Assembly: GCF_003600685.1 (NCBI RefSeq)
Contig: NZ_CP032084.1
Span: forward strand, 3,038,001 to 3,102,000
DNA from: Achromobacter sp. B7
GTDB lineage: Bacteria; Pseudomonadota; Gammaproteobacteria; Burkholderiales; Burkholderiaceae_B
DNA length: 64,000 nucleotides
Direction: 5' to 3'
Position 1 is the first letter of the stretch; each line of letters starts with the position of its first letter. A program made the position numbers and the translations under genes. Of the stretch, positions 6,193 to 61,621 are shown piece by piece. The notes beneath the pieces are model-generated. The model saw only the letters and a list, made by a program, of their open reading frames with translations. It had not been told where the DNA came from and did no database searches.

Positions 6193-9077
6193 AGCCCGTC
6201 GCCCCGCCCATCGCCCCCAGCATTCCCCGCGCCACGGCGCGCCTGCAATTGCATGCCGACTTCACGCTGGACGACGCACGCCGGCAGCTTCCCTACTACG
6301 CCGCGTTGGGGGTCAGCCACTTGTACCTGTCGCCCATCACCCAGGCCAAGGCGGGCTCCACGCACGGTTATGACGTTATCGACCACCAGCGCGTCAGTGA
6401 CGATCTGGGCGGCGAAAGCGCGCTGCGCAAGCTGGCAGACGCGGCACGCGCCCACGGCATGGGCCTGATTGCCGACATCGTGCCCAATCACATGGCCGCG
6501 CATGCGTCCAACGCCTGGTGGGCCGACGTATTGCGGCTGGGCCGGCAAAGCGCGCAAGCCGGCACCTTCGACATCAACTGGGACGCGCCCGACCCCCTGC
6601 TGCGCGGCAAGGTGCTGCTGCCCGTGCTGCCCGACCCGTACAGCGAAACCCTGGCAGCGGGTGGCATCCGGCTGGTGCACGATGCGCAGTCGGGCACCAG
6701 CTATATCGAAGCCGGCGGCCAGCAGTTGCCGCTAACGCCCGGCTCGGCCACCGGGGACCCGGCCACCTTGTGCGCAGCCTGCGACCCCGGCAGCGCGGCC
6801 GGCCAGGCGCGGCTGCACGCCTTGCTGGAACGCCAACATTACCGCCTGGCCTGGTGGCGCACCGCGCCCGACCTCATCAACTGGCGCCGCTTCTTTGAAA
6901 TCAGCGAACTGGTGGGCGTGCGCGTGGAGGACGAGGCCGTGTTCAACGCCGTGCATGCGCTGGTGTTGCGCTTGTACCGCGAAGGCGTGCTGGACGGCCT
7001 GCGCATCGACCATATCGATGGCCTGGCCAGCCCCGGTGCCTATCTGCGCCGCTTGCGCCGCGCCATGCGCGAGGCGGACGACGCCCGCAGCCAGGCCGGC
7101 CTGCCCGGCGAAGGCTATCTGGTCATTGAGAAGATCCTGGCGGACGACGAAGCGCTGGAACCGCATTGGCCCACCCACGGCACCACGGGCTACGACTTCA
7201 TGGACCAGGTGGGCGCGCTGCTGCATGCCCCCCAGGCACAGGCGCCGCTGGAACAGTTCTGGGCCAGCCTGAGCCGCGACGCGCGCGATGCCCCGGCCCA
7301 ACTGCGCGACGCCCGCCACCGCATGCTGGCACGCCACTTCCCCAGCGAAAGGCTCGCGCTGGTGACGGCGCTGGCGCGCATCGCGCACATGGATGCGCGA
7401 ACCCGCGATTGGACCCAGCCCGCCATCGACCGAGTGCTGACGGCGCTGCTGGCGGCATTCCCGGTGTACCGCACCTATGCAGAGGACGGCGGCCGCAGCC
7501 CCGCCGATACGCACTGGTGCCGCATCGCGCTGGACCAGGCGCGCGCGGCGCTGGGCGACGCGTCGGCCGACCTGCGCTTGCTGGACCAGTTGGACCACTG
7601 GCTGGGCGGGGGCACGCCGCCGTCCGAGTCCGCAACGCCCGCAACGTCTGCAACGTCTGCAACGTCCGCAACGCCCTCAACGTCTGCCACGCCCGCACCG
7701 GCTGCGGCTGCGGCTGCAATCCCCGGCGCCGACTCGGCGGACGCCCCCGATTCCCAGCAGGCCGAGGCGCGCACGCTGGCCTTGCGCCGGTTCCAGCAGC
7801 TGACGCCGCCCCTGGCCGCCAAAGCCTTGGAAGATACGCTGTTCTACCGACGCGGCCCGCTGTTGTCCCGCAACGAAGTGGGCTCCAGCCCGACCCGGTT
7901 CACGCTGCCGCTTGAAGAGTTCCATGCACTGTGCGCCGCGCGTGCGGGCACGCACCCGCATGCCATGCTGGCCACCGCCACCCACGACCACAAGCGCGGC
8001 GAAGACACGCGCGCCCGGCTGGCCGTGCTGTCTGAAATCCCCGACGAGTGGCGCCGCACCGCGGACGGCTGGATTGCCCGGCTGGCGCCACCCGGGCCGC
8101 CCACCCCCGCCGACCGCTACCTGCTTTTGCAAAGCCTGGTGGGCGCGTGGCCGCTGTCGTTGTCACCCGAGCGGCTAAGCGAACAGCCCGAGGCCATTGC
8201 GGACTTTCTTGGCCGCATCGCGCAGTGGCAGGAAAAAGCCCTGCGCGAAGCCAAGCTGCACACCAGTTGGACGGACCCGAACGCCGACTACGAGGGCGCC
8301 GCCCGACGATGCATCGAGGCCTTGCAACAGCCCGGCGACGGGCAGGCCCTGCTGCGAGACATCGGCACCTGGGCGCTGAAAATCGCTTCGGCGGGCCTTG
8401 TGAACAGCCTGACCCAGACGGTGCTGCGCAACACGGTGCCCGGCGTGCCGGATCTTTACCAGGGCGCGGACCTGTGGGACTTCAGCCTGGTCGATCCCGA
8501 CAACCGCCGCCCGGTGGACTACGCGGAGCGGGCGGCGCTGCTGGCCGAATCGAATCCGCCTGGCACCTTGGAAGGCGATGCAACGGATGCCACCGCGACC
8601 TTGCAGGAAGACGCGCGCCCGGACGTGCTGGCAGGGCACGTTGACACGCCCATCGCCACCGACGCGCAGGCATGGCGCAGTGGCGCCATCAAGCAGTCAC
8701 TGATCCAGCGCGCGCTGGCGCTGCGGGCGCGTCACCCCGACGTTTTCCGCCTGGGCGACTACACGCCGCTTGCGGTGCACGGCCCGCGCGCCGCGAACGT
8801 CATTGCGTACCTGCGCCGCCATGACGGGCGCTGTGTGGTGGTCGTGGCGCCCAGGCTGTGCGCCATGGCGCTGGCCGGCTACGCCCAGGGCAAACCGGCG
8901 CAGGCAGCGGCCTACTGGGAGGGCACCCGCGTGGCGCTGCCGGCAGACGTGGACGCGGACATGGACGCCTTGCGCGACGTGCTTTCCGGCCGCCGTCCCA
9001 GCGTGAACGGGGCCGGCGAACTTGCGCTGGACCAACTGCTGCGAGACGGGCCGGTGGCGCTGTTGGCGACGGAGTAG
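6189..9077 (+). CDS. treY: Malto-oligosyltrehalose synthase TreY
   Basis: Intramolecular transglucosidase that converts the reducing-end alpha-1,4 bond of malto-oligosaccharides to the alpha,alpha-1,1 bond of trehalose; TreZ then releases trehalose. The ATG at 6189 overlaps the malQ stop (ATGA) and begins MKPVAPPIAPS, giving 962 residues; frame upstream of this is inside malQ. GH13 motifs are LYLSPITQAKAGSTHGYDV, GLIADIVPNHM, LRIDHIDGL with Asp274 as nucleophile, LVIEKILADDE, and ATATHDHKRGEDTRARL. A Ser/Ala/Thr-rich stretch (about residues 479-520) is built on 9-nt repeats and looks inserted. The stop codon sits inside a downstream 17-nt repeat. Confidence 0.95.
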   Translation: MKPVAPPIAPSIPRATARLQLHADFTLDDARRQLPYYAALGVSHLYLSPITQAKAGSTHGYDVIDHQRVSDDLGGESALRKLADAARAHGMGLIADIVPNHMAAHASNAWWADVLRLGRQSAQAGTFDINWDAPDPLLRGKVLLPVLPDPYSETLAAGGIRLVHDAQSGTSYIEAGGQQLPLTPGSATGDPATLCAACDPGSAAGQARLHALLERQHYRLAWWRTAPDLINWRRFFEISELVGVRVEDEAVFNAVHALVLRLYREGVLDGLRIDHIDGLASPGAYLRRLRRAMREADDARSQAGLPGEGYLVIEKILADDEALEPHWPTHGTTGYDFMDQVGALLHAPQAQAPLEQFWASLSRDARDAPAQLRDARHRMLARHFPSERLALVTALARIAHMDARTRDWTQPAIDRVLTALLAAFPVYRTYAEDGGRSPADTHWCRIALDQARAALGDASADLRLLDQLDHWLGGGTPPSESATPATSATSATSATPSTSATPAPAAAAAAIPGADSADAPDSQQAEARTLALRRFQQLTPPLAAKALEDTLFYRRGPLLSRNEVGSSPTRFTLPLEEFHALCAARAGTHPHAMLATATHDHKRGEDTRARLAVLSEIPDEWRRTADGWIARLAPPGPPTPADRYLLLQSLVGAWPLSLSPERLSEQPEAIADFLGRIAQWQEKALREAKLHTSWTDPNADYEGAARRCIEALQQPGDGQALLRDIGTWALKIASAGLVNSLTQTVLRNTVPGVPDLYQGADLWDFSLVDPDNRRPVDYAERAALLAESNPPGTLEGDATDATATLQEDARPDVLAGHVDTPIATDAQAWRSGAIKQSLIQRALALRARHPDVFRLGDYTPLAVHGPRAANVIAYLRRHDGRCVVVVAPRLCAMALAGYAQGKPAQAAAYWEGTRVALPADVDADMDALRDVLSGRRPSVNGAGELALDQLLRDGPVALLATE
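7632..7694 (+). repeat. Seven tandem 9-nt units inside treY
   Basis: Units of the type GCAACGTCT/GCAACGCCC repeat in frame and encode an (Ala-Thr-Ser/Pro) run, followed directly by a GCTGCG alanine run. The insert lies between conserved TreY segments and is another in-frame 9-nt expansion in the same operon as the one in malQ. Confidence 0.9.
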
Positions 9078-9118
9078 CGGGAAGGACGGAGTAGCGGGAA
9101 GGACGGAGTAGCGGGAAG
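9068..9118 (+). repeat. Three perfect 17-nt tandem repeats spanning the treY stop
   Basis: The unit GACGGAGTAGCGGGAAG occurs three times without a mismatch. The first copy contains the treY stop codon TAG at 9075-9077, so the repeat duplicates the end of the gene into the intergenic region. Confidence 0.95.
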
Positions 9119-9208
9119 GCAAGCGCGGCGGCGAGTGCGGAGGCAAGTGCGGAGGCGACGCGCCACGGAGCCGCCGCGCTGCGCCCAGCCCCGTCACGCT
9201 TGGTACGG

Positions 9209-9272
9209 CTGCCGTTTACTTCTGCTGCCGTTTACTTCTGCTGCCGTTTACTTCTGCTTCCGTTTACCACTG
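9209..9272 (+). repeat. Four 16-nt tandem repeats downstream of the trehalose operon
   Basis: Three perfect copies of CTGCCGTTTACTTCTG are followed by one diverged copy. They lie between treY and the convergent TonB receptor gene. The copies are contiguous, so this is not a CRISPR array. The rest of 9119-9295 shows nothing else recognisable. Confidence 0.93.
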
Positions 9273-9295
9273 CTCCCGCCCAGTACCGGTCGCGC

Positions 9296-34413: not shown

Positions 34414-35669
34414 AATCGCGCTTCTTTTTTGCCGGACTCCTGATCGTCGGGATCATAGGAAGCAGCAATGATTTATTTCTTCGCAAGGACACAACAGTGA
34501 CTCCAGATACCGCAGACATTCAAACCTGGGTGTTCGGCAGGCATTTGATTGATTTTCCTTCGAACTGGCTTTACAGCACCAGCAGCTACGTGACGCTGTA
34601 TTACGGATTGGATACCGATTTCAAAACCGCCCAAGTCCGGGTTCTGGGCACCGAAGTGTCCGCTGGCCGATTTGCGGATGCAGTCAACGACAGGGCATCG
34701 CAGATCGCGCTCGTCGATCATGATTCGGGCGGCTCGATGATGCTTGCCAAGATGCAGTTGAGCGAAACGCAAATATTGCTACGCTTCTTTCACAGTCCCG
34801 AACTGAAGAATTACCACACCCATGAGCTTCACCTTCTGGTTGGTGACGTCTATGTCTTGATCAGGGCTGACTCCTTCAAAAACGTCATGGCCCCCGTAGA
34901 GGCCCGCATCCAGGCGCTGGCCAAAACTATCACCAAAATCTCCGACCCACTCAGCGCCGGTCCTGGCTTTGGCCTTGGGCCCATCATCATCCGCGACCAC
35001 CACGATCAAGAGGTCGGAGTGATCGAATTTTTCATCGACGGTTCCAATGTCAGCTTGGAAACGCGCATTACGGCCTTGCAGCCCAGTCCATCGACCGGCC
35101 TTCAGGCACGCGCAAAACAACAGATGGCTGGTATGGCCTACAACACCTTGCGGGCGGGAAAGCTGACTCTTGCCTCTATGCAAGCAGAACAATTTGCCTT
35201 CGGCTTCACCGAAACCAATCACCACGCGTTTCTATTCCTGGCCGAAACCTATCGCGACAAGCGCGCATTCACTCAACCGTCTATTCACATGCGGATGAGC
35301 GGCGGCGGCGCCCTTACCCCGCCGGCCCGTCCGGATGACCAACCCGACCTTGTCCGTTGGTCCCTGCCCCGCTTCGTACCGAACAAGCACGAGATTCCCC
35401 TTTGGAAGCGGCCGCCTCCCCCGCCCCGCGTGGATGCAACCTTAAGCGACAAAGAAGCCGGCAAGTTGTGGGACGCGATCGTGGCGTCGGTGCGGCTGCG
35501 CTACCTGGCCGTCGCGCCCAGGCCGCCTTCCGCTTTTGACCAGGGCAACCCGGAAAAAGCCGCTGCCGATCAAAAGGCGCTGGATGAATTTCTTAGCACT
35601 GACGAAGACGGCCGGCCCTGGACGCCGCCGGACGACGATCCGCCGCCCGACGATCCGCCGTCGCGGTAA
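34410..35669 (+). CDS. Tli4-like immunity protein (copy B)
   Basis: A 419-residue paralogue of the protein at 31266, starting MKSRFFFAGLLIVGIIGSSN (signal peptide or anchor) at an ATGA overlap with effector B. WVFGRHLIDFPSNW and FHSPELKNYHTHELHLLVGD are shared with copy A, and the C-terminus is almost the same except for an extended Asp/Pro tail. The middle (about residues 205-310) is strongly diverged, as expected if that part sets specificity for its own lipase. Whether copies A and B cross-protect cannot be seen from sequence. Confidence 0.8.
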   Translation: MKSRFFFAGLLIVGIIGSSNDLFLRKDTTVTPDTADIQTWVFGRHLIDFPSNWLYSTSSYVTLYYGLDTDFKTAQVRVLGTEVSAGRFADAVNDRASQIALVDHDSGGSMMLAKMQLSETQILLRFFHSPELKNYHTHELHLLVGDVYVLIRADSFKNVMAPVEARIQALAKTITKISDPLSAGPGFGLGPIIIRDHHDQEVGVIEFFIDGSNVSLETRITALQPSPSTGLQARAKQQMAGMAYNTLRAGKLTLASMQAEQFAFGFTETNHHAFLFLAETYRDKRAFTQPSIHMRMSGGGALTPPARPDDQPDLVRWSLPRFVPNKHEIPLWKRPPPPPRVDATLSDKEAGKLWDAIVASVRLRYLAVAPRPPSAFDQGNPEKAAADQKALDEFLSTDEDGRPWTPPDDDPPPDDPPSR

Positions 35670-35675
35670 AACACC

Positions 35676-35706
35676 GGATGCGCAGGCGCAGGCCCGCGCC
35701 GCATCC
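35676..35706. terminator. Possible hairpin between convergent genes
   Basis: GGATGCG / CGCATCC pair across an inner GGCGC / GCGCC stem, right after the immunity gene stop. On the minus strand it is followed by GTGTTTTACC. It is a weak but well-placed candidate for ending both convergent transcripts. Confidence 0.35.
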
Positions 35707-35711
35707 TTGCC

Positions 35712-36179
35712 TCAGCTGCGTGCCGGCTTGTTGCCGTGCGAGACGCTGGGGGTGTCGCGGAACAAGGACATATGCGTGTGGGTGGCAACCCACGGGTCGC
35801 CGATGGCTACGCGCGCAAACGACACGGTTGCGCGGCCGACGCGGTCGAAGGGTTTGCCGTCGGGGTGGTAACCGGTGGAATCCCATACGGCCATGCCGAC
35901 GGCGAACAGGCGGTCGGGCGACACGAGCGTTTGCACGTCGTCCAGGCGCCAGATGAAGTCGTCGATTGTGAACCAGACGTTGCGCCACTGCGTCTTTTCG
36001 GCGTGGTCGCGGCCGGTGACGAAGTTGGTGTAGGTGCCGAAGGCGACGAAGTCTTCGGCGAACAGGTGGCGGGCGGCAGCGTAGTCCACCGCTTGCACGT
36101 GGTCGGACAGTTCCTTGAACCAGGCGCGCACGGCGGCGGCATCGGCGGCGTCAACGGGGGCCAGGGCTTGCACGGACAT
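35712..36179 (-). CDS. SnoaL/NTF2-like protein
   Basis: A 155-residue single-domain protein with an NTF2-like/ketosteroid-isomerase-like pattern: AAAVRAWFKELSDHVQAVDYAAARHLFAEDF followed by strands such as WRNVWFTIDDFIW and a closing WVATHTHMSLFR. The ATG at 36179 has TTGGAG upstream; a longer frame to 36242 lacks support. Members bind or isomerise small molecules, or serve as stress-related scaffolds. It lies 26 nt from the stop of an ABC ATPase gene on the same strand and may be co-transcribed with it. The substrate is unknown. Confidence 0.72.
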   Translation of the reverse strand: MSVQALAPVDAADAAAVRAWFKELSDHVQAVDYAAARHLFAEDFVAFGTYTNFVTGRDHAEKTQWRNVWFTIDDFIWRLDDVQTLVSPDRLFAVGMAVWDSTGYHPDGKPFDRVGRATVSFARVAIGDPWVATHTHMSLFRDTPSVSHGNKPARS

Positions 36180-36205
36180 GAATATCGCTCCAATAAAGTA
36201 ATGAA

Positions 36206-37300
36206 TCAGGGTGTAGCAGGAATCTGGTCGGCGAACCAGCACGCCACGGCATGGGCGGGCGCGACGGATGAATGGGGCGCGACGGATGACCGGGGCGTGG
36301 CCGGCGCGGTCGGGGTGACCGGGATGGCCGGCTCTGCAGGCGGGCCGGACGCCCCCGTCAACAACGGCGGGGCCTCCTGCCGGCAGCGTTCCGTGGCCAG
36401 CGGGCAGCGCGGGTGATAGCGGCAGCCCGAAGGTGGCGACATCGGGCTGGGCGGCTCGCCTGGGGCGACCCGATAGGGCTCGCGCTGCGCGTCCGCCCCA
36501 CGTCGCGGCTCCGGCACGGCGGCCAGCAGCGCGCGGGTATACGGATGCCTGGGGCGTTGATAGATGTCATCACGCGGGCCCGTCTCGACAATCTGCCCCG
36601 CATACATGATGGCGATGCGATGCGACACGTGCCGCACCACCGCCAGGTCGTGCGCGATCAGCAGGAACGACAGGCCCAGTTCCTGTTGCAGGTCCTGGAA
36701 CAGGTTGATGATCTGGGCGCGCACCGATACGTCCAGCGCGGACACGGGTTCGTCCGCCACGATCAAGTCGGGCTGCACGGCCAGGGCACGCGCGATACCC
36801 ACGCGCTGTCGCTGGCCGCCCGAGAACGCGTGCGGATACCGCTGCGCGGCATCGGCGGGCAGGCCGACCTGGCCGATCAGCTGGGCGACGCGCCGCCGCA
36901 AGGCGTCCCGGCCCGCGCTCCAACCGTGCACGATCAGCGGTTCGGCAATGGCGTCGAATACGGTGTGGCGCGGGTTCAGGCTGGTGGACGGGTCCTGGAA
37001 CACCAGCTGCATGTGCCGCCGCAACTGGCGCAGCTGCGTGTTGCCGGCGCGCGTGATGTCTTCGCCCCGGAAATGCAATGAGCCCGAGGCCAGCGGCGCG
37101 CGCCGCAGCACGGCCCGCCCCAGGGTGGTCTTGCCGGAACCGGACTCGCCGACCAGACCCAGCGTTTCACCGCGCGCCAGGTCCAGCGACACGCCATCGA
37201 CCGCCCGCGCCAGCACGGGCTTGCCGAACCAGCCGGCCGATCGCACCGGAAAATGCACGCGCAGGTCGCGCGCCTGTAGCAATACGTTGGCGTCGGTCAT
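36206..37300 (-). CDS. ABC transporter ATPase (DppF/OppF type)
   Basis: ATP-binding subunit of a peptide-type importer, 364 residues, starting MTDANVLLQARDLRVHFP. Walker A is GESGSGKTT, signature FSGGQRQRV, Walker [13 protein letters not shown]. The C-terminal oligopeptide-type extension contains CRYHPRCPLATERC, then a Pro/Ala/Ser-rich tail (TPTAPATPRSSVAPHSSVAPAHA) built on short repeats. No Shine-Dalgarno sequence is visible before its ATG (AATTCCGCTCG-ATG). The preceding 112 nt is a chain of start-stop units that could hand ribosomes over from the upstream ATPase gene. Confidence 0.92.
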   Translation of the reverse strand: MTDANVLLQARDLRVHFPVRSAGWFGKPVLARAVDGVSLDLARGETLGLVGESGSGKTTLGRAVLRRAPLASGSLHFRGEDITRAGNTQLRQLRRHMQLVFQDPSTSLNPRHTVFDAIAEPLIVHGWSAGRDALRRRVAQLIGQVGLPADAAQRYPHAFSGGQRQRVGIARALAVQPDLIVADEPVSALDVSVRAQIINLFQDLQQELGLSFLLIAHDLAVVRHVSHRIAIMYAGQIVETGPRDDIYQRPRHPYTRALLAAVPEPRRGADAQREPYRVAPGEPPSPMSPPSGCRYHPRCPLATERCRQEAPPLLTGASGPPAEPAIPVTPTAPATPRSSVAPHSSVAPAHAVACWFADQIPATP

Positions 37301-37310
37301 CGAGCGGAAT

Positions 37311-37412
37311 TCACTGGGGGGTATTCATCGGGCGGTGCTCATCAGGCGGTGCTCATCAGGCGGTACTCATCAGGTGATACTCATCAGGCGTTATTCATCA
37401 GGCGGTATTCAT
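37311..37412 (-). repeat. Seven overlapping start-stop micro-ORFs at exact 14-nt spacing
   Basis: On the minus strand ATGs occur at 37412, 37398, 37384, 37370, 37356, 37342 and 37328. The first five frames are 5 codons including stop (Met-Asn-Thr-Ala, Met-Asn-Asn-Ala, Met-Ser-Ile-Thr, and Met-Ser-Thr-Ala twice). The last two are 6 codons (Met-Ser-Thr-Ala-Arg and Met-Asn-Thr-Pro-Gln). Each stop overlaps the next start as TGATG, or as ATGA for the last pair. The first ATG overlaps the stop of the upstream ATPase gene, and the last stop lies 10 nt before the ATG of the downstream one. Unit interiors vary but every ATG and every TGA is kept. Confidence 0.9.
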
Positions 37413-38398
37413 CACACGTTTGTCCAAGCTGGCGTATACGGACGCACGCAAGCGGCCAAGCGCCCCTGGCCGACGTCTTGCAGCGGCGGGCGGCGCGCGC
37501 ACGCGGCATCCGCCGCCGGGCAACGTGGCGCAAAGTCGCAGTGCTGGGCACGCTGGCGCAGATCCGGCGGCACGCCTTCGATGGCGATCATGCGGTGGCG
37601 CGTGTCGTCCAGACGCGGCGTGGCGCGCAACAGCCCCGCGGTGTAGGGGTGCGCAGGCGCCGCGTACAGCGCGTCGGCGTCCGCCAGTTCCACCAGGCGG
37701 CCGGCGTACATGACGGCGACGCGGTCGGCCACCTTGGCCACCACGCCCAGGTCATGCGTGACCAGCAACAAGGCCAGCCCCAGCCGCTGCTTGAGCGTGG
37801 CAAGCAGTTCCAGGATCTGCGCCTGGATGGTGACGTCCAGCGCCGTCGTGGGCTCGTCCGCGATCAAAATCCGGGGCTCGCAGGCCAGCGCCATGGCAAT
37901 CAGGATGCGCTGGCGCTGGCCGCCTGAGAACTCGTGCGGCAGCCGCCCCAGGCGCTCGGACTGCTTGGGTATGCCCACCTGCGCCAGCAGCTCGACGATG
38001 CGCGCGCGGCGGCGGCTGGCATCCAGCTTGGTGTGACGCCGCAGCACTTCGTCGATCTGCGTACCGATGGTCAACAGCGGGTTCAACGCGCTCATGGGGT
38101 CCTGAAACACCATGGCGATGCGATTGCCGCGCAGGTCTTGCAGCACCCGGGGCGGCGCAGCCAGCAGGTCGATGTCGTCGAACCACACCTGCCCGCCGGC
38201 CACGCGGCCCGGCAAGGTGGTCAAGCCCATCAAGGCCAGCGCACAGGCGCTTTTACCGGAACCGCTTTCTCCGACCAGCGCCAAGGTTTCCCCGGCATGC
38301 AGGTCGAACGACACGCCGTCCACGGCGTTCACGGTGCCATGCCGGGTCAGGAATTGCACGTGCAGGTCGCGCACGCGTAGCAAGGGCCGCGCGCTCAT
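37412..38398 (-). CDS. ABC transporter ATPase (DppD/OppD type)
   Basis: ATP-binding subunit of 328 residues starting [14 protein letters not shown]; this ATG overlaps the stop of the permease gene (ATGA), so a longer upstream frame is rejected. Walker [10 protein letters not shown], signature FSGGQRQRI, Walker [13 protein letters not shown], plus the C-terminal Cys motif [14 protein letters not shown] typical of oligopeptide ATPases. It works with the ATPase at 36206 and the permeases upstream. Its stop overlaps the first of seven start-stop micro-ORFs. Confidence 0.92.
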
Positions 38399-39339
38399 CG
38401 ACGCACCTTCGCAATCAGACGGCGGGCAAAGTCTTTTTCTCGTTCGCGGGGGTCCAGCGCCAGACGCAAGCGGCTCGCGGCCAGGTTGACGATCAACACC
38501 GTCAGCGCGATCGACAAGCCCGGAAATGTAGCTAGCCACCACGCGCTGGTCAGGTAATTGCGGCCGTTGGCCACGTCCAGGCCCCAGGACACCGCGGGCG
38601 GCTGCACCCCGACGCCCAGGAACGACAGCGCTGCTTCCGCCAGCACCACGCGCGCAAACTCCAGCACCATCAAGGTGATCAGCGGCGCTGCCAGGTTGGG
38701 CAGGATGTGGCGCAGCAGGATGCGGCCCGCGCGCGCGCCGATCATCTCGGCGCTTTCGATATAGGGCAGCTGGCGCACGGACAGCACCACGCTGCGGATC
38801 TGGCGCGCGTAGACCATCCAGCCGTTCAAGGCTAGTGCCAGTATCACTGTGCCCGGCCCGGGGCCGAGGATCACCAGGATCACCAGCGACAACAGCAGGC
38901 CCGGAAACGCCACGTGCACATCAACCCAGCGCATCAAGGCGGCGTCCACACGCCCCCCGGCAAACCCGGCAATCAGGCCGACCAGCACGCCAAAGCTTGC
39001 CGATACGGCTACCACGGCCGCGCCGATCAGGATTGACAGCCGCGCGCCGTGCAGGATCCGGCTGAGGACGTCGCGGCCCAGGTTGTCGGTGCCCAACAGA
39101 TTGGCGACCGTGCCGCGCGCTTCCCAGACCGGGGGCCGCAGGCGCGCCGACAGCTTGATGGCCGCCGGGTCATATGGCGCCAGCCAGGGCAGCACGATGG
39201 CCACCACCGCCAGCAGTAGCAGCAGCGCCGCCGCCAGCACCCAGCCGCGCTGCCGATCGGACAGCGCCTGCCAGCCGCGTGTGCGCGGCGCGTCGGGCGC
39301 GGGCGCCACATTCCCCATCCAGGCCGGAACGCTGCTCAT
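38395..39339 (-). CDS. ABC transporter permease (DppC type)
   Basis: Inner-membrane permease, 314 residues from MSSVPAWMGNVAP at an ATGA overlap with the preceding permease gene. Six hydrophobic segments follow a cytoplasmic N-terminus. Family stretches are LGTDNLGRDVLSRILHGARLS and the coupling loop GARAGRILLRHILPNLAAPL. It belongs to the operon running from 41784 down to 36206. Confidence 0.92.
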   Translation of the reverse strand: MSSVPAWMGNVAPAPDAPRTRGWQALSDRQRGWVLAAALLLLLAVVAIVLPWLAPYDPAAIKLSARLRPPVWEARGTVANLLGTDNLGRDVLSRILHGARLSILIGAAVVAVSASFGVLVGLIAGFAGGRVDAALMRWVDVHVAFPGLLLSLVILVILGPGPGTVILALALNGWMVYARQIRSVVLSVRQLPYIESAEMIGARAGRILLRHILPNLAAPLITLMVLEFARVVLAEAALSFLGVGVQPPAVSWGLDVANGRNYLTSAWWLATFPGLSIALTVLIVNLAASRLRLALDPREREKDFARRLIAKVRR

Positions 39340-40283
39340 ACCGCGATCCTGGGGTCTAGCAGCCGGTACGCAATGTCCAGGCAGAAGTTGATAAGCACGA
39401 TCAGGAACGCAATGAAGAAGACCACCGCCTGCAACAGGACCAGGTCCTGGCGCTCGATGGCCTGGATGGCGGTCTGGCCCAGGCCGGGCCACGCAAAAAC
39501 GGTTTCAACGACGACGGTGTGGCCCGCCAGCATGCCGGCAAATTCCCATCCCAGCAGCGCCACGGTGGGCACGGCGGCATTGCGAAGCGCGTGCACCAGT
39601 ACGATGCGGCCGGACCGCAACCCCTTGGCGCGGGCGGTACGCACGTACAGGGAATTCAATTCGTCGATCAGGGCGGAACGCAGCATCATGGCGATGCGGC
39701 CCAGCGCGGGCAAGGCCAGCGTCAGCATGGGCAGGATGGCGCTGCCCGGCGCCTCGGCGCCCGATGACGGCAACCAGTTCAAGGTCACTGCAAACAGCAG
39801 GATCAGCAACAGGCCCAGCCAGAACTGCGGCAATGACAGGCCGCCCAGACTCAACACCACGGAAATGCGGTCGGCCCACTGCCCGGGGCGCAGCGCGGCC
39901 ACGATGCCCAGCGGCACGCCGACCACAATGGCCAGGCTCAGCGCGCCCAGGCACAGCGTCAGCGTGTTGGGCAGGCGTTCCAGCACGATGTCCATGGCGG
40001 GCCGCTGCTGCCAGATGGAATTGCCGAAGTCGAACGAGGCGATGTCGCGCAGGTAGTGCAGATACTGCGCCCAGATGGGCCCGTCCATGCCCAGCGCGCG
40101 CGCCAGCACGGCACGGTCGGCGGCGGACGCGTCCACCGGCAACATGGCCTGGACGGGGTCGCCCACCAACCGCGTCACGATGAACACGATCGTGGTTACG
40201 CCAAACACCACCAGCAAGCCTTGCGTGAAGCGGCCCAACAAGAAGCGCGGCAAGCCGCGCCCGCTGTGATTACTGGGTGACAC
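39336..40283 (-). CDS. ABC transporter permease (DppB type)
   Basis: Inner-membrane permease of 315 residues. The start is a GTG at 40283 with AAGGAC six bases upstream; it overlaps the end of the binding-protein gene by 14 nt. The first helix (GLLVVFGVTTIVFIVTRLVG) and the coupling loop RTARAKGLRSGRIVLVHALR are typical for DppB. It ends in an ATGA overlap with the DppC-type gene. Confidence 0.92.
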   Translation of the reverse strand: MSPSNHSGRGLPRFLLGRFTQGLLVVFGVTTIVFIVTRLVGDPVQAMLPVDASAADRAVLARALGMDGPIWAQYLHYLRDIASFDFGNSIWQQRPAMDIVLERLPNTLTLCLGALSLAIVVGVPLGIVAALRPGQWADRISVVLSLGGLSLPQFWLGLLLILLFAVTLNWLPSSGAEAPGSAILPMLTLALPALGRIAMMLRSALIDELNSLYVRTARAKGLRSGRIVLVHALRNAAVPTVALLGWEFAGMLAGHTVVVETVFAWPGLGQTAIQAIERQDLVLLQAVVFFIAFLIVLINFCLDIAYRLLDPRIAV

Positions 40284-41784
40284 GGATGTCCTTCAGCGGA
40301 ATCAGGCCATCAACGCGCGGCGCAAAATCAATGCGCTTGGACAAGCCGAAGATCTCGCCCCCTTCCAAAAGAAATACCAGATAGGCTTCGTCGCGGCCAA
40401 TCTTCAGCGCGCGCGTATACAGCGCCTGGCGCTTGACCGGGTCAGCCTCCTGGCGGGCGGCGTCGATCAGGCCCTTGAGCTCGGCGTTGTCGTTGGCGGC
40501 GGCCACGCCGCCGTCGGCGTAATAGGCGCTAAGGGTGCGGTCGGCGTCCAGCAACTGGTTCGAATGGCTGCTGCTGATCTGCGCTTCGGTGGGCACGCGG
40601 TTCTTGTTGATGGCTTCCAGGTATTCGGCCCAGGCCAGCACGCGGAAATTCACCTTCAGGCCGGCCGCCTCCCAGTAGGCGGCGATGGTCTCGGCCAGTT
40701 CCTTGTCTTTCAGCCAGCGGCCGGACGGCGCGTACAGGTCAATGGACTTGCCATAGGCGCCCGCCGCCTTGAGCAGCTCGGTGGCGCGCGCGGGGTCATA
40801 GGGATACGGCTGGATGCTGGCGTCGTAGCCGAACCAGCCGGGTGCCAGCAGCTGCCCGCGCGAGACGGCCGCATAGCCGCCGTACAGGTCCTTGGCCAGC
40901 GCCTCTTTGTCCACCGCGTAGTTCAAGGCCTGGCGTACGCGCACATCGCGGGTCAGCCCCTTCAAGGCGTTCAGCGACACGAACGGCAGGTCGGTGCCTT
41001 GCAGGGTGACGGCGCGGGCGACGCGCTTGGTGTCCTCGGGCAACACGTTGGTGATGAAGTCGAAGTCGCCGGCGCGCAGGCCGGACAGGCGCGTGCCCGG
41101 CTCGGCCACGAACCGATAGGTGGCGCGGTCGACGTTGCCTACCGCTTGCGGATTCCAGTAGTTCGGGTTGCGGGACAGCACGATGCGGTTGCCCTTGGCC
41201 CATTCCGTCAACACGTACGGGCCGCTGCCCACCGGCTTCTGGCCCAGGCTGCCGTCGGCGGCGGCCGCGGGCGACACGATGGTCAGCCACGACAGGCGCG
41301 CGGGCAAGGCGGGATCGGCGCCGTTGGTGAACACGCGCACCGTGACGGCATCGACCGCCTCGGCGCGTTTGATGCCCAGAAAGAACGGCCGCTGACGCGA
41401 CGCGGTCTTGGGGTCGACGATGCGGTTGATGCTGGCGGCCACGGCGGCCGCGTCCAGCGGCTGGCCGTCGCTGAATGTGAGCTTGGGGCGCAGGGTCACT
41501 TCCCAGGTGTCCGCGCCGGTCTGGCGCGGCAGCTCGGTGGCCAGTTGCGGCACCAATTCGCCCTTGGCGGTGCGAGTGATCAGGGTTTCGAAGATGTTGC
41601 GCGACACGGCGCGCTCGGAACCGTCCTGCGCGGTCTGCGGGTCCAGCGTTGACGGTTCGGTGCCCAGCGCCAACGTGATGTCGGCCGCCTGGGCCGCCGA
41701 CATCACGGCCGTCGACAGCACGGACGCTGACAACACGGACGCTGACAGGGCCAGGGCCAAGCCCTGGTAGCGGTGACGGCTCAT
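40270..41784 (-). CDS. ABC transporter substrate-binding protein (peptide family)
   Basis: Periplasmic binding protein of 504 residues. The signal peptide contains a duplicated segment (ALSASVLSASVLSTAV), encoded by an 18-nt-type repeat near 41714-41752, and ends near SAAQAADITL. The mature part has ALGTEPSTLDPQTAQDGS, LTFSDGQPLDAAAVAAS, VGSGPYVLTEW and VRQALNYAVDKEAL, as in SBP_bac_5. GGAGTG precedes the ATG and can pair with a distant upstream element. First gene of a five-gene transporter operon; its cargo is unknown. Confidence 0.9.
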   Translation of the reverse strand: MSRHRYQGLALALSASVLSASVLSTAVMSAAQAADITLALGTEPSTLDPQTAQDGSERAVSRNIFETLITRTAKGELVPQLATELPRQTGADTWEVTLRPKLTFSDGQPLDAAAVAASINRIVDPKTASRQRPFFLGIKRAEAVDAVTVRVFTNGADPALPARLSWLTIVSPAAAADGSLGQKPVGSGPYVLTEWAKGNRIVLSRNPNYWNPQAVGNVDRATYRFVAEPGTRLSGLRAGDFDFITNVLPEDTKRVARAVTLQGTDLPFVSLNALKGLTRDVRVRQALNYAVDKEALAKDLYGGYAAVSRGQLLAPGWFGYDASIQPYPYDPARATELLKAAGAYGKSIDLYAPSGRWLKDKELAETIAAYWEAAGLKVNFRVLAWAEYLEAINKNRVPTEAQISSSHSNQLLDADRTLSAYYADGGVAAANDNAELKGLIDAARQEADPVKRQALYTRALKIGRDEAYLVFLLEGGEIFGLSKRIDFAPRVDGLIPLKDIRVTQ

Positions 41785-41789
41785 TGTGC

Positions 41790-41858
41790 ACTCCGGATCA
41801 GAAAGACATGCGAGTGCGGGGCACGATGTCGCAGGTCGGTAAATTAGGAATCCGGAGT
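41790..41858 (-). promoter_or_regulatory. Long-range inverted repeat covering a ribosome site
   Basis: ACTCCGGAT and ATCCGGAGT are perfect 9-base complements separated by 51 nt in the untranslated leader of the binding-protein gene at 40270. The proximal arm contains the GGAGT ribosome site, 4-5 nt before the ATG. Pairing would block initiation; this is inference. No promoter elements could be called with confidence in the rest of 41785-41996. Confidence 0.4.
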
Positions 41859-41996
41859 TTGCCGCTAGAAATCAGAACGTGCCGTTGTAATGATATGCCT
41901 GGGAAATCCTTGACGCGGTGGTGACTGCCGCTTCAAGTCATAAGGGTCAAGACGTCATCAAGGTCGCAAAATCATCGGGTTCGTCAGCGCACGCTT

Positions 41997-44327
41997 CTAT
42001 GCTGCCGCCGGCGAAATGCGGGGCAATTCCCACGCGCGATGCGGCGCGGCCACGTCAAGGGTTGGGTTCGGGTTCGGGTCCAGGTTCTGGTCCAGGTTCG
42101 GAGCAGCCTCAACCTGCACCAGCGCCGTCTGCGCGCTGGACCCCTGCGTCAGTCGCGACGTGCCGATGTCGGCAGTCAGCGTATTCGGATTGCCGTGCCG
42201 GTCCAGATCGCCGTCCGGGTCGGACCACGCGCCGGTGGACATCTGCACCACGCCCGGCAGCATGCCGGCATCCAGCCGCACGCCGGCCAGGCAGGCGCCC
42301 CGCGCATTGAAGACACGCACGCGGTCGCCGTCGGCGATGCCCCGCGCGGCGGCGTCCTCCGGGTGCATCGAGATGGGCTCGCAGCCCTGGATCTTGCTTG
42401 ACCGCGACAACGCGGCCGGGTCGAGCTGGCTGTGCAGGCGATGGCGCGGCTGGTTCGTCAGCAGATGCAGCGGCCACCTGTCGGCACCGGGCGCGCCCAG
42501 CCATTCCGATGGCGCCAGCCACACCGGATGCCCCGGGCAATCGGCGTAGCCAAAGCCCGCCACCACCTCGGAGGCCAGTTCGATCTTGCCGCTGGGCGTG
42601 CGCAGCGGATGCGCTTGCGCGTCGCGGCGAAAGTCCTCGAACAGTACGTACGGCGAGTCGGGCGCGGGCACCTCGGCGTAGCCGCGCGCCCAGAATTCAT
42701 CGAAGGGCGGCAACGTCACGCCGCGCTCGGCGCAGCCCCCGCGCATGCCGTCGTACACGTGGCGGCACCAGCCCATTTCGTCGCGCCCGGCCGTGTAGGC
42801 CTCGTGAAAGCCCGCGCGCCGCGCCAGGTCCGCGAAGATGCCGAAGTCGTTACGCGCCTGCCCTTGCGGCGCCACCGCGCGGTGCATGGCGAACACGTAG
42901 GGATCGCGCGACGAGCCGCCCACGTCGCAGCGTTCCAGTGATGTCGTGGCGGGCAGCACGATGTCGGCGCGGCGCGCCAAGGGTGTCCACCACGATTCAT
43001 GCACGATCACGGTATCGGGCTTGGTCCACGCCTGCCGCAAGCGGTTCTGGTCCTGATGGTGATGGAACGGGTTGCCGCCCGCCCAATAGATCAGCTTGAT
43101 GTCCGGATACGTGTGGCGCGCGCCGTTGAAGTCATATGGCTGGCCGGGCGACAGCAGCATGTCGGCGATGCGCGCGGCGGGGATGGCCAACTGTGCCGGG
43201 TTCTTCGGCACCGGGACTTCGGGGCCGGGCACCCGCCGGCGCGGCTCGCCTATGCCGTTCAAGGACGCGTGGCCGAACGCAAAGCCCCCGCCCGGCAAAC
43301 CGATCTGACCGGCCAACGCGGCCAGCCCGATCAAGGCCCAGTACGGCTGTTCGCCATGTTGCGCGCGTTGCAACGACCACGCCGCCGTCAACAGGCTGCG
43401 TTGCGCCACGATGGCGCGCGCCAGTGCGGTGATGGTGGGCGCCGGCACACCGCAGATGCCGGCCGCCCATTGCGCGTCCTTGGGCTGGCCGTCGGCCGCG
43501 CCCGTCAGGTAGTCGGCCCAGGTATCGGCGCCCACACAGTGGCTGGCCAGAAACGACGCGTCGTGCCGCCCTTCGGCCAGCAAGGCGTGCGCCATGGCCA
43601 GCATCAGCGCGGTGTCGGTGTTGGGCCGAATCGGGATCCACTCGGCGGCGATGCCGTCCGGCACATCGGCGCGCGTGGGGCTGAGCACCACCAGGCGGAT
43701 GCCGGCCGCCTGCGCGCGGGCCAACCACGCCGGCAAGTTGTGCAGCCCCGCGCCGCCCGATGTCACCTGGCTGTTCTTGGTGGGGATGCCGCCAAAGGCC
43801 ACGATGACGCGCGTGTTGGCCAGCACGCTGTCCCAGTCGGTAACGTCGCCGCTGACCGGGCTGAAGGTGCCGATGACGTGCGGCAACAGGAATTGCGCCG
43901 CGCCCCAGCTGTAGTTGCCGACCTGATCGACGCAACCGCCGCCTAGAAACAGGAACCGGCGGATCAAGCTGCGCGCGTGGTGGACGCGACCGGCCGACGA
44001 CCAGCCATACGAGCCGCCAAAGATACCGCCGGGTCCGTGCTCCGCGCGGACGCGAGCCAGCTCCCCCGCCACCAGGTCCAGCGCGTGGTCCCATTCCACT
44101 TTCACATAATCGTCGCCTTCGCGCTCGCGGTTGCCCGCCAGCCAGCCCCGGCGCACCGCGGGCCGCTGCACGCGCAACGGCGAATGCTGCATTTCGGCGA
44201 TGGAGTCCAGCATGGGCGACGGCGCGGCATCGGCATGAAAGGGCTCGCAGCCGACGACTCGCCCGTCTTTCACTACGGCGGTGAACGCGCCCCAGTGCGC
44301 AAGCGAGGGATAGCGGGAGTCAGTCAT
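41997..44327 (-). CDS. Molybdopterin oxidoreductase, biotin sulfoxide/TMAO reductase type (BisC-like)
   Basis: Single-subunit enzyme of the DMSO-reductase family, about 776 residues from MTDSRYPSLAHWGAF; an in-frame ATG at 44372 would add 15 residues and neither start has a clear ribosome site. It has no Tat signal and no N-terminal four-Cys iron-sulfur motif, so it is probably cytoplasmic like BisC. The segment GNYSWGAAQFLLPHVIGT holds the expected Ser ligand of molybdenum. Cofactor-binding stretches include KLIYWAGGNPFHHHQD and WTPLARRADIVLPATTSLER. The extreme C-terminus is an Asn/Asp/Pro repeat (DQNLDPNPNPTLD) built on a hexamer. It reduces S- or N-oxides in relatives. Confidence 0.88.
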   Translation of the reverse strand: MTDSRYPSLAHWGAFTAVVKDGRVVGCEPFHADAAPSPMLDSIAEMQHSPLRVQRPAVRRGWLAGNREREGDDYVKVEWDHALDLVAGELARVRAEHGPGGIFGGSYGWSSAGRVHHARSLIRRFLFLGGGCVDQVGNYSWGAAQFLLPHVIGTFSPVSGDVTDWDSVLANTRVIVAFGGIPTKNSQVTSGGAGLHNLPAWLARAQAAGIRLVVLSPTRADVPDGIAAEWIPIRPNTDTALMLAMAHALLAEGRHDASFLASHCVGADTWADYLTGAADGQPKDAQWAAGICGVPAPTITALARAIVAQRSLLTAAWSLQRAQHGEQPYWALIGLAALAGQIGLPGGGFAFGHASLNGIGEPRRRVPGPEVPVPKNPAQLAIPAARIADMLLSPGQPYDFNGARHTYPDIKLIYWAGGNPFHHHQDQNRLRQAWTKPDTVIVHESWWTPLARRADIVLPATTSLERCDVGGSSRDPYVFAMHRAVAPQGQARNDFGIFADLARRAGFHEAYTAGRDEMGWCRHVYDGMRGGCAERGVTLPPFDEFWARGYAEVPAPDSPYVLFEDFRRDAQAHPLRTPSGKIELASEVVAGFGYADCPGHPVWLAPSEWLGAPGADRWPLHLLTNQPRHRLHSQLDPAALSRSSKIQGCEPISMHPEDAAARGIADGDRVRVFNARGACLAGVRLDAGMLPGVVQMSTGAWSDPDGDLDRHGNPNTLTADIGTSRLTQGSSAQTALVQVEAAPNLDQNLDPNPNPTLDVAAPHRAWELPRISPAAA

Positions 44328-61497: not shown

Positions 61498-61589
61498 GGA
61501 GTCCAGAGCCAGCAGGCGGGCCATGTTTTTTGCCGGTTGAGTTGCCGCTTCATTTGTCGCTTCATTTGCTGGCTGATTTGCCGCCTCAT
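61494..61589 (-). CDS. Tiny tetrapeptide-repeat ORF (function unknown)
   Basis: A 31-codon frame whose first 20 codons are five 12-nt units reading MRRQ-ISQQ-MKRQ-MKRQ-LNRQ, then KTWPACWLWTP. AAGAGG lies just before its ATG and its TGA overlaps the next small ORF. It starts 32 nt after the metallopeptidase stop. It may serve to carry ribosomes towards the transferase gene rather than to make a useful peptide. Confidence 0.35.
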   Translation of the reverse strand: MRRQISQQMKRQMKRQLNRQKTWPACWLWTP

Positions 61590-61621
61590 TTGCCTCTTAT
61601 TTTCCGCGCCCACCGCCTCTC

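Follow-up and report, generated by a model that had tools for sequence, protein, structure and literature searches.

The junction between the two ATPase genes of a predicted peptide transporter operon of Achromobacter sp. B7 is filled by eight tandem units of 14 nt, in which stop and start codons overlap one after another from the end of one gene to the beginning of the next. We think that this array probably (a probability of about 0.6) represents a minisatellite that expanded at an ancestral short stop/start overlap of the ATPase genes, leaving a termination-reinitiation ladder that would still be passable. Its origin by tandem duplication, in a genome where small arrays abound past the 3' ends of genes, is well supported. 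A purpose-built relay is not supported, and the array looks like one of the many small repeats of B7. In what follows, the window is the whole stretch of 64,000 nt that was analysed.

The operon appears to be of the peptide ABC type judging from its domain matches, with genes for a substrate-binding protein, two permeases, an OppD/DppD-like ATPase and then an OppF/DppF-like ATPase. The genes and the array, in the order of transcription, are the following:

40270..41784, minus strand: substrate-binding protein (NCBIfam rows for peptide/nickel/glutathione binding proteins, all below their curated cut-offs)
39336..40253, minus strand: OppB/DppB-like permease (Pfam BPD_transp_1 and BPD_transp_1_N; gene call)
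38395..39318, minus strand: OppC/DppC-like permease (Pfam BPD_transp_1 and OppC_N; gene call)
37412..38374, minus strand: upstream gene, OppD/DppD-like ABC transporter ATPase, 320 aa (gene caller; Pfam ABC_tran and oligo_HPY)
37301..37414, minus strand: stop-start array of eight 14-nt units, including bases 37414-37413 of the upstream stop, which complete the first TGATG
37301..37314, minus strand: eighth, degenerate unit that closes the chain (GTG start at 37314; its TGA overlaps the downstream ATG)
36206..37300, minus strand: downstream gene, OppF/DppF-like ABC transporter ATPase, 364 aa (Pfam and NCBIfam; N-terminus as in relatives)

For both ATPases, and also for the binding protein, the NCBIfam rows shown all stayed below their curated cut-offs. 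The start of the upstream ATPase (GTG 38374) is the choice of the gene caller and is uncertain, the open frame extending to 38542; the downstream ATPase has no alternative ATG, GTG or TTG between ATG 37300 and the in-frame stop upstream. Compared with six orthologs, the dN/dS values of the downstream (0.10-0.13) and upstream (0.11-0.17) ATPases point to purifying selection on the downstream gene, as on the upstream one, so that its product is presumably still made. The values are nevertheless raised in the B7 genome with respect to those among other close congeners (0.10-0.12 versus 0.04-0.07 for the downstream ATPase and 0.11-0.17 versus 0.05-0.09 for the upstream one), and some relaxation of the whole operon is thus possible. 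The downstream ATPase is 364 aa long versus 327-333 aa in the six orthologs, and its extra C-terminal stretch (region 36206-36330, minus strand) adjoins an 18-nt tandem repeat at 36257-36297. With this repeat at the C-terminal end and the array at the N-terminal one, the gene has repeat expansions at both ends. One terminator-like match was found within it (37273-37259, minus strand) versus 0.2 in shuffles. A plus-strand ORF that spans the array (36564-37646) was taken as a shadow of both ATPase genes.

The starts of units 1-7 are ATGs at positions 37412, 37398, 37384, 37370, 37356, 37342 and 37328 of the minus strand, and the micro-ORFs that they open contain four sense codons in units 1-5 and five in units 6-7, as does the one opened by the GTG of unit 8. 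In units 1-5 the TGA overlaps the following ATG by 1 nt (TGATG), while in units 6-8 this first stop has been lost and the next in-frame TGA substitutes for it, overlapping the following start by 4 nt (ATGA or GTGA). At one end the stop of the upstream gene (TGA, 37414-37412) shares 1 nt with the start of unit 1, as had been described in an earlier note on this DNA; at the other, unit 8 overlaps by 4 nt the downstream ATG 37300, so placed that it continues the 14-nt register exactly as a ninth start (37412 minus 8 x 14). From 37414 to 37300 all nine junctions have a stop/start overlap of 1 or 4 nt, and a computed chain test found the chain intact. The same note had described seven ATGs at 14-nt spacing, with four or five sense codons each and stops overlapping the next ATG; this geometry holds, and the count has to be corrected, the eighth, GTG-initiated unit having been missed. 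It had also placed the last stop 10 nt from the downstream ATG, but there is no such gap, since the eighth unit occupies that space and its TGA overlaps ATG 37300. As a tandem repeat the array is more than chance: TRF detects it independently (37320-37414, period 14, 6.8 copies, 87% matches, score 127), and eight short head-to-tail units above background similarity were delimited by hand. The chain follows automatically from a unit of period 2 mod 3 that carries TGATG. A known structured RNA was discarded, with no Rfam match at the gathering threshold in 35000-43000.

A way to look into the history of the array is to compare the same junction in related genomes, a check that the earlier note had proposed. 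We have searched 43 Achromobacter genomes including B7, one per species, requiring strong matches on both sides. The junction was found in B7 and six other genomes, the remaining matches being weaker and taken as paralogs, and a search of 250 family genomes (E <= 1e-50) matched B7 and four of the six orthologs. None of the six orthologous junctions contains the array, and their genes have a direct overlap instead (4 nt in four cases, 8 nt in two). Given this direct overlap in the relatives, the array is best read as a lineage-specific insertion of 112 nt into a pre-existing stop/start overlap. A conserved regulatory device was rejected on the same comparison.

To place the array among the repeats of its genome, we have sampled 81 stretches of B7 (1.664 Mb, that is 80 stretches plus the 64-kb window) and run on them TRF and a simple gene caller based on codon usage. 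The density count omits two stretches placed over known arrays. In the remaining 1.624 Mb there are 150 noncoding arrays, a density of 9.2 per 100 kb, and when the window is left out as well there are 140 in 1.560 Mb (9.0 per 100 kb). Eight congeners sampled at 100 kb each had 23 noncoding arrays in 800 kb (2.9 per 100 kb; range 1-4), a density about three times lower than that of B7. The periods cluster at 11-15 nt, namely 12 (23 arrays), 14 (22), 13 (14), 11 (13) and 15 (12), and by residue 64 periods are 0, 51 are 2 and 35 are 1 mod 3. Thirty-five arrays (the junction array of the window included) cover a stop codon versus 31 expected by random placement, four cover a start codon versus 33 expected (never fewer than 19 in 200 random runs), and a single one (L241) covers both; array density is 1.83 per kb in convergent versus 0.27 in divergent junctions. 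Stop-spanning arrays are therefore as frequent as chance and start-spanning ones strongly depleted, which together with the junction densities indicates that the genome puts up with arrays beyond the ends of its genes and avoids them ahead of the starts. Both the period of 14 and the gene-end position are ordinary in B7; including a start codon is not. Elsewhere in the window, two arrays at 9068-9119 (17 nt x 3.1) and 9208-9278 (16 nt x 4.4) lie in the same convergent junction and one of the two extends over the stop codon of a gene. A 12-nt array at 61529-61607 fills a co-directional junction, at 14 nt from the gene that precedes it and 4 nt from the one that follows.

None of the nine starts has a good Shine-Dalgarno match ahead of it (-3.0 to +0.4 kcal/mol, positions -22 to -4), which agrees with the earlier remark that the downstream gene lacks one, and no sigma-70-like promoter match was found in 37200-37700; a separate promoter or ribosome site for the downstream gene, named in the same note as evidence that would speak against a relay, was thus not found in these searches. 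Four of the six orthologs do not have a good match either (-3.0 to -3.1 kcal/mol), and two carry AAGGAG (-6.3). The array RNA is less structured than 200/200 shuffles (z = +2.18), and we have discarded a hairpin element accordingly. According to the consulted excerpts of two studies, short stop/start overlaps couple genes by termination-reinitiation in E. coli and Haloferax (PMC6728339, PMC10666635). In the excerpt of the second, a 38-nt spacer removes 80-90% or all of the coupling of native E. coli pairs and 14 nt removes 40-80%, the spacers over which coupling disappears measuring 20-38 nt (PMC10666635). With such losses, an unbroken spacer of 112 nt would be expected to uncouple the ATPases, whereas a ladder of overlaps every 14 nt need not do so.

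In the sequence of events that we favour, a 14-nt unit would have been duplicated in tandem at the ancestral stop/start overlap in the Achromobacter lineage of B7. Since such a unit contains the stop/start overlap and measures 2 mod 3, every new copy would bring in a whole micro-ORF, and at no time would the way from the upstream stop to the downstream ATG have been interrupted. Ribosomes leaving the first ATPase would go through as many as nine rounds of termination and reinitiation, where a single one had been enough before, and would still reach the second ATPase, perhaps skipping a rung now and then since the rungs are 14 nt apart. A ribosome relay across the chain is plausible, the lack of Shine-Dalgarno sequences, the unstructured RNA and the 14-nt rungs all fitting it; the same facts also fit independent initiation in open RNA, and any transit of ribosomes through the array is something that we infer from the sequence. 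Several points go against this account, among them the possible relaxation of the operon and a persistence of the chain that is only weakly better than chance (see below). The last 15 nt of an upstream gene fused to a long ORF suffice for coupling in the excerpted study, but in that experiment the 15 nt closed a long translated ORF, whereas the rungs are 4-5 codons long (PMC10666635). In addition, with an assumed loss of no more than 10% at each of the eight added handovers, the downstream product would fall to ~43%, a price that seems high for two ATPases that work as partners. We would sooner take the chain for what made the insertion tolerable than for a device under selection to tune the ratio of the subunits.

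The alternative that fares best, although we regard it as rather unlikely, is that the array is inert filler, with translation of the downstream gene beginning afresh, either at its own ATG or within the open array, without regard to the upstream gene, and the chain no more than a by-product of the repeat. The openness of the RNA agrees with it, nine close starts could each capture a new ribosome, and the start and stop columns are not specially conserved (see below). Moreover, the same geometry appears in the genus where no relay target exists. Three TGATG at 14-nt spacing were found in 11 of the 43 genomes, as 17 arrays (four in B7 and 13 in congeners), seven of which start exactly at the stop of a called gene; only one, the ATPase junction array, ends on the start of a called gene. 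For the other six stop-anchored arrays the next gene is convergent in three, co-directional at 62 and 150 nt in two and uncalled in one. Such chains without a gene target suggest that a string of stop-start micro-ORFs is just the normal look of a 2 mod 3 TGATG minisatellite. The three other period-14 TGATG arrays of B7 have interiors that differ from those of the junction array. Among the congeners, similar 14-nt TGATG arrays with their flanks are found in the pairs L161 (G015)/L167 (G037) and L166 (G036)/L168 (G038), with differing unit numbers, so some arrays outlive speciation. Against inert filler stand the absence of a Shine-Dalgarno sequence ahead of the downstream ATG and of a promoter-like match, and also the congeners, in which the direct overlap is retained, mostly without a good Shine-Dalgarno sequence (four of six), suggesting dependence on coupling.

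We find it improbable that the array is a selected relay, in which the number of units sets the ATPase ratio by step-wise loss at each handover and the chain is maintained for that purpose. The chain of eight units is complete, with GTG replacing a degenerate ATG and back-up stops where the TGA was lost, and the junction array persists in a genome where start-codon arrays are rare. The earlier note had stressed that unit interiors vary while starts and stops persist. The chain is indeed intact, but preferential conservation is not seen: of the 17 cells that deviate from the unit consensus, five fall among the 40 of start/stop columns and 12 among the 72 of other columns (Fisher p = 0.78), so that the start/stop columns are no better conserved than the rest of the unit. 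When random substitutions were placed on the consensus array (20000 simulations per setting), the chain remained intact in 23% with 8 changes, in 9% with 13, the minimum number of events, and in 4% with 17. Chain persistence is only weakly better than chance, suggestive at most. The absence of the array in the six orthologs and these conservation values leave the tuning of the subunit ratio by copy number, as suggested in that note, without support, and 16/17 genus arrays of the same geometry fail to reach a gene start.

Chains comparable to the one in B7, which would favour a selected relay, were sought more widely. A pattern scan of genome contigs gave at least 119 loci, with 129 arrays among the matches listed, five of which join two ORFs of >=80 aa, a criterion of ORF length. 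Among these five, two appear firm: in a Polyangiaceae contig (L111) an aldehyde dehydrogenase gene is followed by five units and then by an FAD monooxygenase gene, and in Microbacterium lacus (L085) three units lie between the genes of an amidohydrolase and an acyl-CoA dehydrogenase, all four genes being Pfam-supported. We have set aside L033 (the upstream ORF looks spurious), L115 (the downstream ORF is short and unsupported) and L048 (the downstream ORF has no Pfam match), and L139, five units before a 201-aa ORF, was not counted, with no upstream gene ending at the array. In viral contigs joins were called by ORF length alone and fractions rather than totals were compared, the array counts being at least those given except for periods 13 and 17; loci common to several scans may in part have escaped notice. 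Among the arrays listed, two ORFs are joined by 7/349 with periods 11, 14 and 17, by 5/346 with periods 10, 13 and 16 and by 0/237 with periods 12 and 15, so that the bias to 2 mod 3 among the joining arrays listed is not significant (2 mod 3 versus the rest, p = 0.14), a further point against selection of the relay. One result did favour a period effect, the upstream stop lying in unit 1 in 30/349 of the 2 mod 3 viral arrays listed versus 24/583 of the others (p = 0.006), but it is confounded, since 0 mod 3 arrays are often inside coding repeats. Of 399 genomes of the order, arrays of period 11 were present in 15, 13 in 14, 10 in 12 and 14 in 29, the last figure (29/399) being inflated by heptamer repeats. 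At newly fetched loci of the order, joins by ORF length only numbered 1/27 for period 14, 0/14 for 13, 2/16 for 11 and 1/13 for 10. Two candidate chains from the same order, also by ORF length only, are L1260 (G638; period 11, between ORFs of 500 and 408 codons) and L1195 (G378; period 14, between ORFs of 142 and 352 codons). Altogether there is no convincing bias towards chain-forming periods, and selection on the period was rejected, given the joining arrays and the heptamer inflation of period 14.

More speculative still, and in our view a long shot, is the idea that stop-start minisatellites are a recurrent, unrecognised element of operon junctions, providing mutable, step-wise ratio control in bacteria and phages. 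Just as conjectural is its mechanistic side, by which 2 mod 3 periods would let the repeat number change without breaking the coupling and reinitiation would proceed serially over micro-ORFs of 3-5 codons. Finally, that the repeat number is an artefact of assembly or sequencing is hardly credible, even if the copy number of short tandem repeats can be mis-assembled, for the B7 genome is one contig rated 100% complete, the units differ mutually (the 17 cells off consensus) and so are not a stuttered copy, and a 99%-identical downstream protein of equal length and start represents 18 member sequences (at the protein level only).

Returning to the expanded minisatellite that we prefer, the array shares with known termination-reinitiation pairs the stop/start overlaps of 1 or 4 nt, the partner subunits and the low Shine-Dalgarno content, and an ordinary overlap of 4 or 8 nt would be its ancestral state, as seen in the six orthologs. 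Unlike those pairs, it has nine overlaps in series via micro-ORFs of 4-5 sense codons, and in the termination-reinitiation literature examined we found no description of serial reinitiation over ORFs of 4-5 codons. Serial reinitiation and the distance that ribosomes travel are disputed in the excerpts consulted, loss of coupling within about 20-40 nt being set against longer scanning (PMC10666635, PMC12548453). The nearest precedent is the mycobacterial interspersed repetitive unit (MIRU), in the part of the source consulted a junction repeat in which a 4-nt overlap couples an internal ORF to the gene next to it, probably limiting the harm of insertion, and the array resembles it in having a small ORF coupled by a short overlap to the neighbouring gene, through which the insertion would be tolerated (PMC12548453). 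MIRUs are dispersed and described as apparently mobile, whereas the array is a 14-nt tandem repeat at a single locus, a 251-nt query holding it having one match in the B7 genome (E <= 0.001) and no dispersed copies. MIRU length is 53-77 bp, and a unit of about 50-100 bp in a mycobacterium contrasts with one of 14 nt in Achromobacter. The array is MIRU-like in its coupling, but it is not a MIRU. With bacterial minisatellites and VNTRs it has in common that it is short, tandem and imperfect and that its period is an ordinary one, like those of the other noncoding arrays sampled (150 in all). Between species, one has the array and six do not. It differs in taking in both a stop and a start codon, so that a path of reading frames runs on from one gene to the other. 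Small upstream ORFs that deliver ribosomes, as the excerpt describes them, also have a tiny ORF whose stop overlaps the next start (PMC12548453), but here there are eight in a row, produced by repetition and located between genes rather than in a 5' leader. Among the open-licence literature matches listed, the MIRU passage, seen as an excerpt (PMC12548453), was the only one to come near tandem stop-start micro-ORFs at a gene junction. We have filed the array as a minisatellite variant of a termination-reinitiation junction.

From the array one can see how a repeat may insert itself into a coupled junction and leave the path of coupling uncut. As a natural ladder of nine overlaps that is absent in six sister species, it is a ready test object for serial reinitiation.
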